Assembly (NCBI RefSeq): GCF_900078705.1
Contig: NZ_FKIF01000002.1
Coordinates: 186,001-250,000, forward strand
Source: Bordetella ansorpii
GTDB lineage: Bacteria; Pseudomonadota; Gammaproteobacteria; Burkholderiales; Burkholderiaceae_B
Direction of reading: 5' to 3'
DNA: 64,000 bases
Shown: in pieces, positions 47,274 through 52,432 of the stretch
How positions within the stretch are numbered: position 1 is the first letter of the stretch
Layout of the letters: each line of letters starts with the position of its first letter
The notes under the pieces: model-generated
What the model was told of the DNA's origin: nothing
The model's database searches: none
Seen by the model: only the letters and a program-made list of their open reading frames with translations
Program-made: the position numbers and the translations under genes

Positions 47274-47315
47274 TTGCTCTGGATCAAATACCCCTACTAT
47301 AAATAGGGGTATGAT
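47274..47315 (+). promoter_or_regulatory. FNR-dependent promoter of fnr with an extra inverted repeat
   Basis: TTGCT-CTGG-ATCAA (47274-47287) matches the FNR/ANR box TTGAT-N4-ATCAA at nine of ten arm positions. Its centre is 41.5 bases before a predicted start at about 47322, fed by the -10 TATGAT (47310-47315): a class II FNR site, so FNR would control itself. Between them, ATACCCCTA-N7-TAGGGGTAT (47288-47312) is a perfect 9-bp inverted repeat overlapping the -10, probably for a second regulator. Confidence 0.75.
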
Positions 47316-47349: not shown

Positions 47350-48084
47350 ATGCTTCCCCTGACCCTCTCCTCTTGCCCTGGCGCCGCCCCGCGGTCGGCC
47401 GATCCCGTTGCGTGCTCGAACTGCGCGCTGCGCGACGTCTGCATGCCCGATGACCTGACGCCGGCGGACTTCGAGCGCCTGGACGCGCTGGTCTGCGCCT
47501 CGCGCAAGGTCTCGCGCGGCGAGACGCTGTACCGCCAGGGCGATGCCTTCCGCAACCTGTACGCGATCAAGGCCGGCGCCTTCAAGACGGTGGTCACGCT
47601 GCGCGACGGCCGCGAACAGATCACGGGCTTTCACATCGCGGGCGAGCCGCTGGGCCTGGACGGCATCCACGCCAGCGAGCACACCGCCGACGCCGTGGCG
47701 CTGGAAGACGGCATGCTGTGCATCATCCCCTACGGCCGCCTGGAACGCCTGTGCGGCGAGATGCGCGCCATGCAGCGCCACCTGCATCGCCTGATGAGCG
47801 GCGAAATCGTGCGCGCCTCGCAACTGATGGCCTTGCTGGGCAGCATGCGAGCCGAGGAACGCGTATCGGCCTTCCTGCTCAACCTCTCGCAACGGCTGCG
47901 CGCGGTGCGCCATGCCGACATGGAATTCAAGCTGCGCATGTCGCGCGAAGAGATCGGCAGCTACCTCGGCATGAAGCTGGAAACCGTCAGCCGCATGCTG
48001 TCGCGCTTCCAGGACGAGAAGCTGATCGAGGTGCGCGGCAAGCTGATCCGCATCCTCGACGCGGACCGGCTGCAGCGCGTCTGA
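47350..48084 (+). CDS. fnr: FNR/ANR-type oxygen-sensing regulator
   Basis: CRP/FNR family activator that senses oxygen through a 4Fe-4S cluster. 244 residues from the ATG at 47350 (MLPLTLSSCP), chosen because the predicted transcript starts near 47322, after the earlier in-frame ATGs (47311, 47314). Cluster cysteines 22, 25 and 31 in VACSNCALRDVC and 124 in DGMLCIIPYG align with FNR C20/C23/C29/C122. The cyclic-nucleotide-like barrel and the HTH IGSYLGMKLETVSRMLSRFQ, with the Glu/Ser/Arg recognition residues for TTGAT, are intact. It is convergent with hemF. Confidence 0.95.
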   Translation: MLPLTLSSCPGAAPRSADPVACSNCALRDVCMPDDLTPADFERLDALVCASRKVSRGETLYRQGDAFRNLYAIKAGAFKTVVTLRDGREQITGFHIAGEPLGLDGIHASEHTADAVALEDGMLCIIPYGRLERLCGEMRAMQRHLHRLMSGEIVRASQLMALLGSMRAEERVSAFLLNLSQRLRAVRHADMEFKLRMSREEIGSYLGMKLETVSRMLSRFQDEKLIEVRGKLIRILDADRLQRV

Positions 48085-48253: not shown

Positions 48254-49255
48254 TCAGCGCCCGCCTACCAGCCAGTCGCGCCGCACCAGGAAGTCGGCGT
48301 ACAGGCGCGCCTCGGCCGAGTCCGGCTCGGGCTGCCAGGCATAGCGCCACGTGGCGGAGGGCGGCATCGACATCAGGATCGACTCGGTGCGCCCGCCGCT
48401 TTGCAGGCCGAACAGCGTGCCGCGGTCCAGCACCAGGTTGAACTCGACGTACCGGCCACGCCGGTAGGCCTGGAAGTCGCGTTCGCGCTGGCCATACGGC
48501 GTGTCGCGGCGCAGTTTGGCAATGGGCAGGTACGCTCCCAGGAATGCATCGCCCACGCTGCGCACCATGGCGAAGTCGTCGTCGAAACCCAGTTCGCAGA
48601 AGTCGTCGAAGAAGATGCCGCCGACGCCGCGCGGTTCGCCACGATGCGGAAGATAGAAATAGTCGTCGCACCACAGCTTGAAGCTGCGGTAGAGATCCGC
48701 GCCGTACGGCAGCAAGGCATCGCGGCAGGCGCGGTGGAAATGCCGCGCATCGTCCTCGAAGCCATAGTGCGGCGTCAGGTCCATGCCGCCGCCGAACCAC
48801 CACACCGCAGGATGGCCCTTGGCTTGCGCGCAGAACAGCCGCACGTTCATGTGCACCGTCGGGCAGTATGGATTGCGCGGATGCAGCACCAGCGACACGC
48901 CCATGGCCTCGAAGGCGCGGCCGGCCAGGTGCGAACGGCCCGCGCTGGCCGAGGGCGGCAGCGCATCGCCATGCACGTGCGAAAAATTCACGCCGCCGCG
49001 CTCGAAGAACTGGCCGTCCTCGATCACGCACGAGCGGCCCTGGCCACGCAGGGCCTCGCCCGCCGGACGCGCCCATTCGTCGACCTCGAAACGCTCGCCG
49101 TCGAATTCGGAAAGCGCGGCGACGATGCGTTGCTGCAGGTCGACCAGATAGCCGCGCACGGCCAGCACGTCGATCGTCTCGTTCGCGGTGCTGTCGAAGG
49201 GAGTGATGCGCCGGCTCGCCGCGTGGTAAGCCTGTTCAGGTAGTGGGAATGCCAT
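48254..49255 (-). CDS. hemF: oxygen-dependent coproporphyrinogen III oxidase
   Basis: Heme pathway enzyme that decarboxylates coproporphyrinogen III using molecular oxygen. 333 residues. Signature regions: [60 protein letters not shown] (by landmarks), [20 protein letters not shown] and [35 protein letters not shown] (by landmarks). Its start overlaps the desaturase 3' end by 20 bases, so it is the last gene of an ompW-desaturase-hemF operon under a predicted FNR site. Confidence 0.96.
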
Positions 49256-50303
49256 GGAAGTCGGTCCATTGATGAGTACGAAGGTCGTACAGCTTGCAGC
49301 GCCGGGCGGTGTCCAGGTACCAGCGCAGCGAGAAGGGCTGGATGACGATGCGGTCCGGCAGCATGTGCTCCAGCGTGCGCTGTGCCGTGCCCAGGCGGTA
49401 CAGCGGAATGCTCATGTCCACGTGATGCGCGGTGTGCTCCATGATGTGATGCAGCATGGCGCCGAACCGCCAAGGGAAAGTCAGGTGCACGGTGGTGGAG
49501 ACGAAGGGCTGCGCCTGGCCCCACGCCGTGCGGTCGTCGTACCAGCCCACGCGCACGTGCGTATGATGGGCGTACAGCACGAACCCCACCAACGAGCACC
49601 ACACGCAGAACGGCAGCGCCACGGCCAGGGCCAGCATCAACGGCACGGACTGGTCCGTCGCCACCGCCACCCAGCACACCAGGCCGATCACGACCGCGCC
49701 GAACGCCGCGACCAGCAGGCAATCGCGCAGGAACACCGGACGCCGCGTGGGCATCGACGCCCGGCTGGGAAAGAACAGCCGCCGCCACCAGATCTCGATG
49801 CCGTAATACAGCCCCGGCGCCCAACCGCTGCGATAGATGCGTTCCATCCATCGGCGCGGCCGCGACAGCGCGTCGAACTCGGCCTGCGTCAGCGGCGCCC
49901 AGACGAAGTCGAAGCCCTTCAGGTTGGTATAGCCGTGGTGCACCACGTTGTGCCCCACTTCCCACAGGCTGTAGGGCGTGAGCGACGGCAGGAAGGCGAT
50001 ACGGCCCACCCACCGGTTCAGGCGGCGCGACGGCGTCAGGCTCTGATGGCAGGCATCATGGGCAATGATGAAGAGGCGGCCGATGACCAGGCCCGCGGCA
50101 ACCCCGCAGAGAAGTTTCACCATCACGCTGCCGGCCAGCACCACGCCGGCCAGCGCGGCCGCCAGCATCGCGTAGTCGAGCATCAGCAACAGCACCGGAT
50201 ATGCGTAGGAGCGCGTCACCAGTGGCGCCAGCCGGTCGCGCAGCACCTTTCGATGCGGCAACGGGGCGTCCGGCGGAATCGGATCGCAGGAATGCTTCAT
50301 CAC
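49236..50303 (-). CDS. fatty acid desaturase (membrane di-iron type)
   Basis: Oxygen-requiring integral membrane desaturase or hydroxylase, 355 residues with about four membrane helices. The three histidine boxes are HDACHQ (near residue 82), HNVVHH (near 118) and HTAHH (near 291), plus an extra HHTH. The build is like the DesA group that makes unsaturated membrane lipids aerobically. It starts nine bases after ompW and overlaps hemF, so all three are probably co-transcribed. Exact position specificity cannot be told. Confidence 0.88.
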
Positions 50304-50312
50304 GAATCGACC

Positions 50313-50924
50313 TCAGAAGCGCCGGCCGATGCCCACGCCGACCAGCCACGGGTCGATCTTCAGCGTGCCGAGCGACGCGCCGGCCAGCGAGGCGTCGGTA
50401 CGGATCCACAGCTTCTTCACGTCCACGTTCATGAACCAGTCGTCGTCCAGGCCGATGTCCATACCGAGCTGCAGCGCGGGACCGAAGCTGTCGCGGTCGA
50501 TGCGCACGCGCTGCCCTCCCGCGGACAGGCTGTTGTCATAGAAACGCGTGTAGTTGATGCCCGCGCCCACGTACGGACGGAACTGGCCGTCCGGATTGAA
50601 GTGATATTGCAGCGTCAGCGTGGGCGGAAGCAGGCTGACCTTGCCCAGGCTGCCCGCGTTGGAGGTCACGCGGTGGCGCGTGACGCCCAGGATCAGTTCC
50701 GCGCCGATGTGGTCCGTGAACATGTAGGTCAGGTCCAGTTCGGGCACGGTCGACTGCTTGACACCCACGTCCAGCGCCGACAAGGTATTGTTGGTCGACG
50801 CGTCCGGCGCGATGTGCAGGGCACGCAGACGGACCAGGACGTCGCCTTCGGCGGCCAGGGTATTGCCGCCGGCCAAAGCCAACAGGGCGGCGACGCAGGC
50901 TATTCTGATGCTCTTCATGTTCAT
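50313..50924 (-). CDS. ompW: OmpW family outer membrane protein
   Basis: Eight-strand beta-barrel of 203 residues with a signal peptide (cut near NTLAAEGDV, about residue 25). OmpW marks: GDVLVRLRALHIAPD, LDLTYMFTDHIGAELILG, PTLTLQYHFNPDGQFRPYVGAGINYTRFY (by landmarks), GMDIGLDDDWFMNVDVKK and a terminal GRRF. OmpW is FNR-regulated in E. coli, and an FNR-like site is visible here too. Start: ATG at 50924; a second ATG two codons later is possible. Confidence 0.93.
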   Translation of the reverse strand: MNMKSIRIACVAALLALAGGNTLAAEGDVLVRLRALHIAPDASTNNTLSALDVGVKQSTVPELDLTYMFTDHIGAELILGVTRHRVTSNAGSLGKVSLLPPTLTLQYHFNPDGQFRPYVGAGINYTRFYDNSLSAGGQRVRIDRDSFGPALQLGMDIGLDDDWFMNVDVKKLWIRTDASLAGASLGTLKIDPWLVGVGIGRRF

Positions 50925-50951
50925 GATTACGCTCTCGTTGAGGATGCAGCC

Positions 50952-50993
50952 ATCATTCCACCGGCGCCCATGCGGCGCCTTGCGGCAGATCAA
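50952..50993 (-). promoter_or_regulatory. predicted FNR-dependent promoter of ompW-desaturase-hemF
   Basis: TTGCG-GCAG-ATCAA (50980-50993, as read on the plus strand) matches the FNR box at eight of ten arm positions. On the minus strand its centre is 41.5 bases from position 50945, and AATGAT lies at the matching -10 (50957-50952). This is the class II layout seen at fnr, with a somewhat weaker box. Confidence 0.6.
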
Positions 50994-51034: not shown

Positions 51035-52432
51035 ATGGCTGAGGCGCAGTTGAAGATCGCGGTGGTGGGCCACACCAACACCGGCAAGACCTCGCTGCTG
51101 CGCACGCTGACGCGCGATCCCGCGTTCGGGCAGGTGGCCGATGCGCCGGGCACCACGCGCCACGTCGAGGGGGTGCGTCTGGCCGCGGGCGAGGACGCCA
51201 CGGTCGAGTGGTACGACACCCCGGGCATGGAAGACAGCATCGCGCTGCTGGAGTACCTGGAGCGCCTGGACGAGCCGGGCCAGCGGCGGGACGGCCCGGC
51301 CCGCGTGCACCGTTTCCTGGATTCTCCCGAAGCAAAAGGCCGCTTCGAGCAGGAGGCGCGCGTGCTGGCCAAGCTGCTGGACTGCGACGCGGCGCTGTAC
51401 GTCATCGACGCGCGCGATCCTGTGCTGGGCAAGCATCGCGACGAACTGGCGCTGCTGGCCGCCTGCGGCAGGCCGCTGCTGCCGGTGCTGAACTTCGTGC
51501 AGGCGCCCGCGCACCGCGCCCAGGGCTGGCGCGACGCCATGTCGCGCCTGGGCCTGCATGCCGTGCTGGAGTTCGACACGGTGGCGCCGCCCCTGGACGG
51601 CGAAGCGCGCCTGTATGGACGCCTGGCCATGCTGCTGCACCAGCATGCGGACCTGCTCGAGCGCATCGCCAAGACCCTGTCGCAACAGCGCCAGCAGCGC
51701 CGCATGGATGCCTGCCGCGTATCGGCCGACCTGCTGATCGATGCCGCCGCCTTGCGGCTGACGGTCGCCGGTGAACCCGATGCCGTGGCCGCAGCCACGG
51801 ACACCTTGCGCGAGCAGGTGCGCCTGCGCGAACAGGCCGCTTCGCAGGCGCTGCTGGCCCTGTACAACTTCCGTCCCGGCGACTACGCCGCCGACACGCT
51901 GCCGCTATCCGGCGAACGCTGGCGCATGGACCTGTTCCATCCCCAGGCCCTGAAGGACATGGGCGTGCGGCTGGGCGTGGGCGCCGCCGCGGGCGCCATG
52001 GCCGGCGCGGCGGTGGACCTGGCGGTGGGGGGACTGAGCCTGGGCGCGGGCATGCTGCTGGGCGCGGCCGCCGGCGGCGTGTGGCAAGGCGTAGGCCAGC
52101 TCGGCCAGCGCATGGCCGGCCGGCTGCGCGGCCATCGTGAACTCAGCGTCGACGACGCCGTGCTGCGCCTGCTGGCGCTTCGGCAGCGGCAGCTCATCCA
52201 GGCGCTGGAACGCCGTGGCCATGCGGCGCGCGAACCGGTGCGCCTGGACCAGCCCGCCGACGAAGCGTGGCGCCGCGCGGCCTTGCCCGACGCCATCGCG
52301 GAGGCACGCAGCCGGCCCGCGTGGTCCGCGCTGAATGAGCATCACGAAGACGACGAGCGCCGCAAGCTGAAGCTGGCCGAACTCGCCCGGCACATGGCGC
52401 GGGACATGGAGCAGGCCGCGCCAACCGAGTGA
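51035..52432 (+). CDS. DUF3482 domain GTPase
   Basis: 465 residues. N-terminal GTPase domain: G1 GHTNTGKTS (residues 12-20), G2 threonine in APGTTRHVE, G3 DTPG (61-64), LYVIDARDP; at the G4 position, where NKxD is normal, the sequence is LNFV (152-155), so nucleotide specificity may be unusual. The C-terminal DUF3482 part has helices (about 200-275) and a glycine-rich hydrophobic stretch (about 311-360: GVGAAAGAMAGAA, GGLSLGAGMLLGAAAGG) that could insert into membranes. Homologues normally follow a DUF2868 gene; here they are separated. No partner function is known. Confidence 0.85.
   Translation: MAEAQLKIAVVGHTNTGKTSLLRTLTRDPAFGQVADAPGTTRHVEGVRLAAGEDATVEWYDTPGMEDSIALLEYLERLDEPGQRRDGPARVHRFLDSPEAKGRFEQEARVLAKLLDCDAALYVIDARDPVLGKHRDELALLAACGRPLLPVLNFVQAPAHRAQGWRDAMSRLGLHAVLEFDTVAPPLDGEARLYGRLAMLLHQHADLLERIAKTLSQQRQQRRMDACRVSADLLIDAAALRLTVAGEPDAVAAATDTLREQVRLREQAASQALLALYNFRPGDYAADTLPLSGERWRMDLFHPQALKDMGVRLGVGAAAGAMAGAAVDLAVGGLSLGAGMLLGAAAGGVWQGVGQLGQRMAGRLRGHRELSVDDAVLRLLALRQRQLIQALERRGHAAREPVRLDQPADEAWRRAALPDAIAEARSRPAWSALNEHHEDDERRKLKLAELARHMARDMEQAAPTE

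Follow-up and report, generated by a model that had tools for sequence, protein, structure and literature searches.

The window analysed here, a stretch of 64,000 nucleotides from Bordetella ansorpii (contig NZ_FKIF01000002.1), carries on its minus strand three closely packed genes: ompW, a gene for a membrane fatty-acid desaturase and a second gene for oxygen-dependent coproporphyrinogen III oxidase, hereafter hemF2. They are preceded by an FNR-type box and a -10-like hexamer, and a gene for an FNR-type oxygen-sensing regulator lies close by (Table 1). From sequence comparisons we consider, with a probability of about 0.75, that the three genes would form one operon switched on by FNR at low oxygen, in which HemF2 would stand in the FNR-controlled place of HemN, the oxygen-free enzyme.

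Layout and promoter of the ompW-desaturase-hemF2 gene set

Table 1. Coordinates in the window of the genes and promoter elements discussed in the text
Feature	Position	Strand	Remarks
FNR-type box of the operon	50980-50993	minus	TTGAT-CTGC-CGCAA towards ompW; TTGCG-GCAG-ATCAA on plus
-10-like hexamer of the operon	50957-50952	minus	AATGAT; begins exactly 22 nt past the box; class II spacing
ompW	50313-50924	minus	Outer-membrane beta-barrel; operon gene 1; PF03922 3e-48
Membrane fatty-acid desaturase	49236-50303	minus	GTG start, ATG at 50300; PF00487 9.5e-32
hemF2	48254-49255	minus	Second oxygen-dependent coproporphyrinogen III oxidase; PF01218 (Coprogen_oxidas) 8.6e-125; NF003727 above cut-off
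fnr	47350-48084	plus	FNR-type oxygen-sensing regulator; CRP/FNR domains; convergent to hemF2; open frame extends further upstream
FNR-type box of fnr	47274-47287	plus	TTGCT-CTGG-ATCAA; -10 TATGAT at 47310-47315, 22 nt beyond
GTPase with DUF3482	51035-52432	plus	Divergent to ompW; PF11981, PF01926

The sequence-only reading of this stretch had described a packed ompW-desaturase-hemF set with a 9-base gap and a 20-base overlap; the coordinates agree with it and the three Pfam families are confirmed. The gap, between ompW and the desaturase gene, becomes 12 bases if the latter begins at its ATG (50300), and the overlap is that of the desaturase and hemF2 frames. OmpW matches PF03922 with 164.8 bits over residues 27-204, i.e. 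most of the chain, and is below the cut-off of the NCBIfam equivalog NF008202 (124.9 versus 287 bits); each of the three genomes known to hold the operon has a single ompW match. The histidine boxes of the desaturase (HDxCH, HNxVHH and HTAHH) do not vary across 13 aligned homologues. Its score is far below the cut-off of the DesA equivalog NF052548 (70.8 versus 500 bits), and no solved structure matched its sequence up to an E value of 1. HemF2 matches PF01218 nearly over its full length (415.7 bits, residues 34-328) and NF003727 with 425.4 bits against a cut-off of 297. A terminator scan found none.

Two further species of the genus (G068 and G156) share the arrangement of the source genome, with the genes in the same order and no difference in gap, overlap, box or -10; one record with the operon, L056, bears the name Bordetella genomosp. 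13. Across the three species the stretch between the box and ompW is nearly identical, and that between the box and the GTPase gene is more variable. The desaturase genes of the three give pairwise dN/dS values of 0.12-0.21.

By a class II promoter we mean one in which the centre of an FNR-type palindrome is near -41.5 and the -10 follows at 22 nt. The operon promoter has this layout, with a box showing two mismatches to TTGAT-N4-ATCAA and AATGAT at exactly 22 nt, which confirms the earlier placing of TTGCG-GCAG-ATCAA at the class II position with AATGAT as -10. A sigma-70 scan reported no promoter at the operon site, its single match being at 47323-47296 on the minus strand; since a class II promoter can do without a -35, this miss was not weighed against the proposal. 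The divergent GTPase gene is probably outside the system, because a class II start in its direction would leave almost no leader.

Places that fit TTGAT-N4-ATCAA with no more than two mismatches are common in the genome (1612, against 381 for the mirror control) and over-represented in the window (23 versus 7 expected); by simple arithmetic, one would be met in a gap of this size with a chance of ~3%. Such a site, taken alone, was therefore dropped as evidence for FNR, and plain site counts may overstate FNR control in this genome. The same figures speak for chance, i.e. for a constitutive operon in a GC-rich genome where TTGAT/ATCAA matches like this one are numerous. We hold this to be highly improbable: the exact form TTGCG-N4-ATCAA (TTGCGNNNNATCAA), a pattern that came from the hemN promoters of the genus independently of the window sequence, occurs at only 12 places in the 6.2 Mb genome (mirror control: 1), with a chance of ~2e-4, again by simple arithmetic, of falling in the operon's gap; the -10 stands at the exact class II distance, a -10-like hexamer being present at a fixed position for 0.3% of window positions (intergenic DNA should be somewhat richer); and neither element has changed in the three species. 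Perfect FNR boxes number three in the genome, and the frames downstream of them resemble, by eye, universal stress proteins and alcohol dehydrogenases.

Related promoters in the genus and in the Burkholderiales

The TTGCG-N4-ATCAA pattern is present upstream of all eight hemN genes of the genus that score above cut-off, and in 7/7 of them after dereplication a -10-like hexamer lies exactly 22 nt past the box, with no other spacing found in the 10-35 range. One of these boxes (TTGCGGCAAATCAA, in G113) is one base off the operon box; their orientation relative to the gene is opposite to that in the operon. In Rhodobacter sphaeroides, an FnrL ChIP-chip peak for which activation is indicated covers the hemN site TTGCGcaggATCAA; the site has a low matrix score (262), and the authors remark that FnrL may bind two such sites less tightly (PMC2908626).

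The desaturase promoters were taken from the best 80 of at least 522 confirmed loci, nearly all labelled Burkholderiales or a subgroup; 79 of them (L057-L135) were counted, L056 being the operon itself. Boxes were scored within 250 bases upstream and compared with 19 permuted palindromes, after dropping upstream stretches shorter than 150 bases (which reduced the ompW sample from 29 to 28) and, for the dereplicated counts, near-duplicate upstreams. A box was found at 51/79 desaturase loci (permuted mean 8.3, maximum 22) and at 38/58 after dereplication (mean 6.0, maximum 16). The stretches taken differ slightly between analyses, which gives 58 or 60 loci, 38 or 39 of them with a box. In the set of 39 dereplicated boxed loci, the -10 was at exactly 22 nt in 19 and at 21-23 nt in 25, versus none at 22 nt for any of the permuted palindromes and, at 21-23 nt, none for 16 and one for three of them. 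For the ompW relatives of the order (like the order-wide hemF sample, best matches of 399 genomes), boxes were present in 17/28 (permuted mean 2.2, maximum 7), and 4 of the 14 dereplicated boxed loci have their -10 at the 22-nt distance. Within the genus, the other ompW genes, 36-40% identical, had a site in 9/9 cases, one of them poor.

It looks from these counts as if the desaturase is FNR-controlled in much of the Burkholderiales. The earlier suggestion of a class II promoter under FNR is strongly supported by comparison with the congeneric hemN promoters, with the order-wide desaturase promoters and their permuted controls, and with the promoter of fnr itself, which shares the layout. As to other routes to unsaturated fatty acids, fabA was considered and rejected: FabA is above cut-off in none of the 15 genomes of the genus, where only weak matches, which may be FabZ, were seen. 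A paper on nifA-mutant nodules of Paraburkholderia phymatum tabulates, with a value of -4.87, a fatty acid desaturase (Bphy_7418) that may or may not be an orthologue (PMC8305402).

The fnr gene is close to the operon in all three species; in G156 it is separated from hemF2 by a long open frame. Three N-terminal cysteines and a central one, together with an ExxSR recognition helix, define oxygen-sensing FNR. The cysteines of the window protein (CSNC-x5-C and MLC) align with those of the solved chain 9qlt_A, named FNR type regulator, and its recognition helix reads LETVSR versus VETISR in that chain. It falls narrowly below the cut-off of NCBIfam Fnr NF008365 (223.6 versus 228 bits), and for this reason we call it FNR-type. 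The layout of box and -10 upstream of fnr implies autoregulation and a later start codon, likely that at 47350, downstream of the automatic call; in the two other operon species the fnr box is TTGCG-N4-ATCAA. A perfect inverted repeat of 9 bases, ATACCCCTA...TAGGGGTAT (47288-47312), is situated between the fnr box of the window and TATGAT and extends into the hexamer; it is retained in G068 and has one change in G156. Its TACCCCT arms resemble NarL heptamers.

CRP/FNR-family regulators share half-sites, and the operon box might be real and used by another member of the family, either a second four-cysteine FNR or an NO-sensing regulator of the DNR type. The genome does encode a second FNR-like protein, with CSDC-x5-C and a later cysteine (G000:C6:1077629-1078324). 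This explanation is nevertheless distinctly improbable, since a search of the other two operon species gave, besides the window-type FNR, only remote matches at ~23% identity, and since the operon box has the unusual half-site of the congeneric hemN promoters and, in two species, of the fnr promoter. As a side observation, the second FNR-like gene has as its neighbours, in the region L212 (G000:C6:1076500-1082500), frames resembling by eye those for universal stress proteins, for an alcohol dehydrogenase and a small heat-shock protein, and for a PHB-type reductase; the region looks like a low-oxygen survival cluster, and a search with the FNR-like gene alone returned no counterpart in the two other operon species.

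The second HemF and HemN in the genus

Three points go beyond the sequence-only reading: hemF2 is a second copy, the species that carry it are without a hemN above cut-off, and the desaturase is associated with FNR-type promoters order-wide. The other hemF of the source genome (G000:C10:14195-15139) is 64% identical to hemF2, and hemF2 together with the desaturase is present in only three of the 15 genomes of the genus. In a tree of 44 hemF rows (3 of 47, shorter than 250 residues, were left out), the hemF genes of the genus group together (12 rows, support 100/99), and the operon hemF2 genes make up a clade of their own (3 rows, 100/100) somewhere among other Burkholderiales.

No HemN above cut-off was found in the three hemF2 species, their only match being a partial one that reaches ~109 bits where the cut-off is 325 and is probably HemW; HemN is above cut-off in eight of the 15 genomes of the genus. 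Among the 13 complete ones, the mutual exclusion of hemF2 and hemN gives a Fisher p of 0.035, with the caveat that the three hemF2 species are relatives. HemF2 appears to fill the FNR-controlled slot that HemN holds in the relatives. The box itself was also sought within 250 bases upstream of the other hemF genes, and none of the 29 best matches of the order has it. For the other hemF of the three operon species the sole match is ~346 bases upstream, inside a frame that by eye is purD-like, and it was rejected.

Several observations weigh against the proposal. At the promoter, one half-site is two positions off consensus and AATGAT matches TATAAT at four of six positions; the three species are close and nearly all of the ~70 bases from box to ATG are kept, so that this footprint alone discriminates little. 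Elsewhere, the 14 nearer desaturase homologues of the family have boxes at chance level (5/14, control mean 4.4, maximum 9), which leaves family-wide FNR control of the desaturase unsupported; among the other ompW loci of the genus, none of the seven dereplicated ones shows a -10 at the 22-nt distance; and a box within 250 bases is found for none of the 15 other hemF rows of the genus, where several rows can be parts of a single gene that is split or cut. Finally, the exclusion of hemF2 and hemN depends on a single group of related species, and two complete genomes, G092 and G152, have neither a full hemN nor hemF2.

This last point, together with the presence of the other HemF in the genome, would suit a different account, in which the operon is FNR-controlled and hemF2 is a redundant passenger, adding gene dosage from an acquired cluster without replacing HemN. 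We find it rather unlikely. The hemF2 genes of the three species that have retained it are under purifying selection (dN/dS = 0.11-0.13); HemF2 keeps 130 of 132 columns that are near-invariant in 41 other HemF rows, the exceptions being residues 108 and 163, when four HemF rows used as a yardstick show 0-2 departures; and related clusters have hemN in the same neighbourhood. Replacement of HemN by HemF2 is the account that we prefer. In one of the two complete genomes named above, the search for hemN yielded no more than a C-terminal piece of 98 residues (L215, G092:C1:1264000-1268500), and hemN may for this reason have been lost more than once in the genus.

Proposed mechanism and comparison with known systems

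When oxygen is scarce, the iron-sulphur cluster of FNR would stay intact and the protein would bind the operon box, recruiting polymerase at the class II position; it would probably also raise its own gene through the box of the same layout. The predicted co-transcription would then bring a rise of OmpW, altering the outer membrane, and more desaturase and HemF2, with which the oxygen-dependent lipid and heme steps could continue on little oxygen. HemF2 would occupy the FNR-controlled place of the oxygen-free HemN, a swap that fits a micro-aerobic rather than an anaerobic lifestyle.

Cyanobacteria offer a documented precedent for raising oxygen-using enzymes as oxygen falls, and the Bordetella operon may be compared to it by analogy. 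In the operon chlAII(acsFII)-ho2-hemN-desF, the low-oxygen activator ChlR raises second isoforms of oxygen-consuming tetrapyrrole enzymes and a low-oxygen desaturase, DesF; the operon includes desF in Synechococcus 7002 and is without it in Synechocystis 6803, desF loss is conditionally lethal in micro-oxic conditions, and the reviewers weigh both dosage and affinity as readings of such isoforms (PMC4500134). The differences are that ChlR is of the MarR type whereas the neighbouring regulator here is of the CRP/FNR type, which places the Bordetella operon outside the ChlR class; that the heme step there is the oxygen-free HemN and here a second HemF; that no OmpW is present there; and that these cyanobacteria, unlike the Bordetella hosts, produce their own oxygen.

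A wider view, which we advance tentatively and at somewhat less than even odds, is that the operon is a proteobacterial counterpart of this micro-oxic isozyme operon: HemN would have been lost in one Bordetella lineage and its slot taken by a second, possibly higher-affinity HemF, joined to a desaturase whose control by FNR is common in the Burkholderiales, and FNR would be a switch that lets the cell exploit scarce oxygen, not one for doing without it. In the usual teaching FNR is the switch to oxygen-free life, and here it appears to raise oxygen-needing enzymes. A second HemF in the place of HemN would be a test case for what gives low-oxygen isozymes their advantage, their amount or their affinity for oxygen, and a class II FNR-type promoter found often on the desaturase across the order would couple oxygen sensing with membrane fluidity in a large bacterial group.

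Parts of the gene set have been paired with FNR homologues elsewhere, under the name oprG where this OmpW-family gene is concerned. The Anr regulon of Pseudomonas includes hemF and oprG under an FNR homologue, at separate loci unlike here and with hemN also a target; the word desaturase is absent from the main text of that paper (PMC6588701). In the betaproteobacterium Herbaspirillum seropedicae, the Fnr1 targets near fnr1 include ompW1 and fixNOP, and the main text mentions neither a desaturase nor hemF (PMC5934665). FNR control of ompW-type genes is documented in several reports (PMC5934665, PMC2908626, PMC5398030; as oprG in PMC6588701). The pairings FNR-ompW and Anr-hemF are thus already published; the literature searched, which was that outside subscription papers and supplements, holds no description of the ompW-desaturase-hemF set, of an FNR-controlled desaturase in the Burkholderiales, of an FNR-type class II promoter on this desaturase family across the order, or of a second HemF that FNR drives where a lineage has no HemN.

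The origin of the set was considered with a tree of 41 desaturase rows, hand-chosen among the collected loci. The window group joins Trinickia symbiotica and Paraburkholderia rows, five of the six cyo-linked ones, with a support of 93/83, good though below the starred level; the sixth, from Burkholderia sp. SRS-46, is elsewhere in the tree. In T. symbiotica (L070) the order is cyo-like genes (named by eye), desaturase, hemN-like gene, fnr-like gene (44%) and ompW (59%). According to its annotation, plasmid NZ_CP017565.2 of P. sprentiae WSM5005 carries OmpW, hemN, cyoA-D, a fatty acid desaturase, two other genes, a truncated hemoglobin and nifHDK, with FNR-type sites ahead of ompW, hemN and cyoA, the last one perfect (TTGATCGACATCAA). 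Among four more cyo-desaturase contigs, L064 has a nearly full hemN, L118 and L121 have pieces of hemN and ompW, and L128 has neither.

This nearest desaturase group shares with the Bordetella operon an ompW, a coproporphyrinogen oxidase and, on the plasmid, FNR-type boxes, an association that probably predates the operon. It differs by its separate transcription units, by cyoABCD between them, by HemN instead of HemF and, on the plasmid, by the proximity of nif genes; the single compact operon and the presence of HemF in place of HemN set the Bordetella arrangement apart. Elsewhere in the family, a desaturase homologue at 52-60% identity is found in 14 other genomes among 151 of the family, with no ompW, hemF or fnr within 1.5 kb. 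On NZ_CP017565.2 (L219, 6986-15083), the ompW-hemN-cyoABCD-desaturase cluster is embedded among nif genes, on a plasmid whose typing is conjugative, and is a candidate micro-oxic island for nodules.

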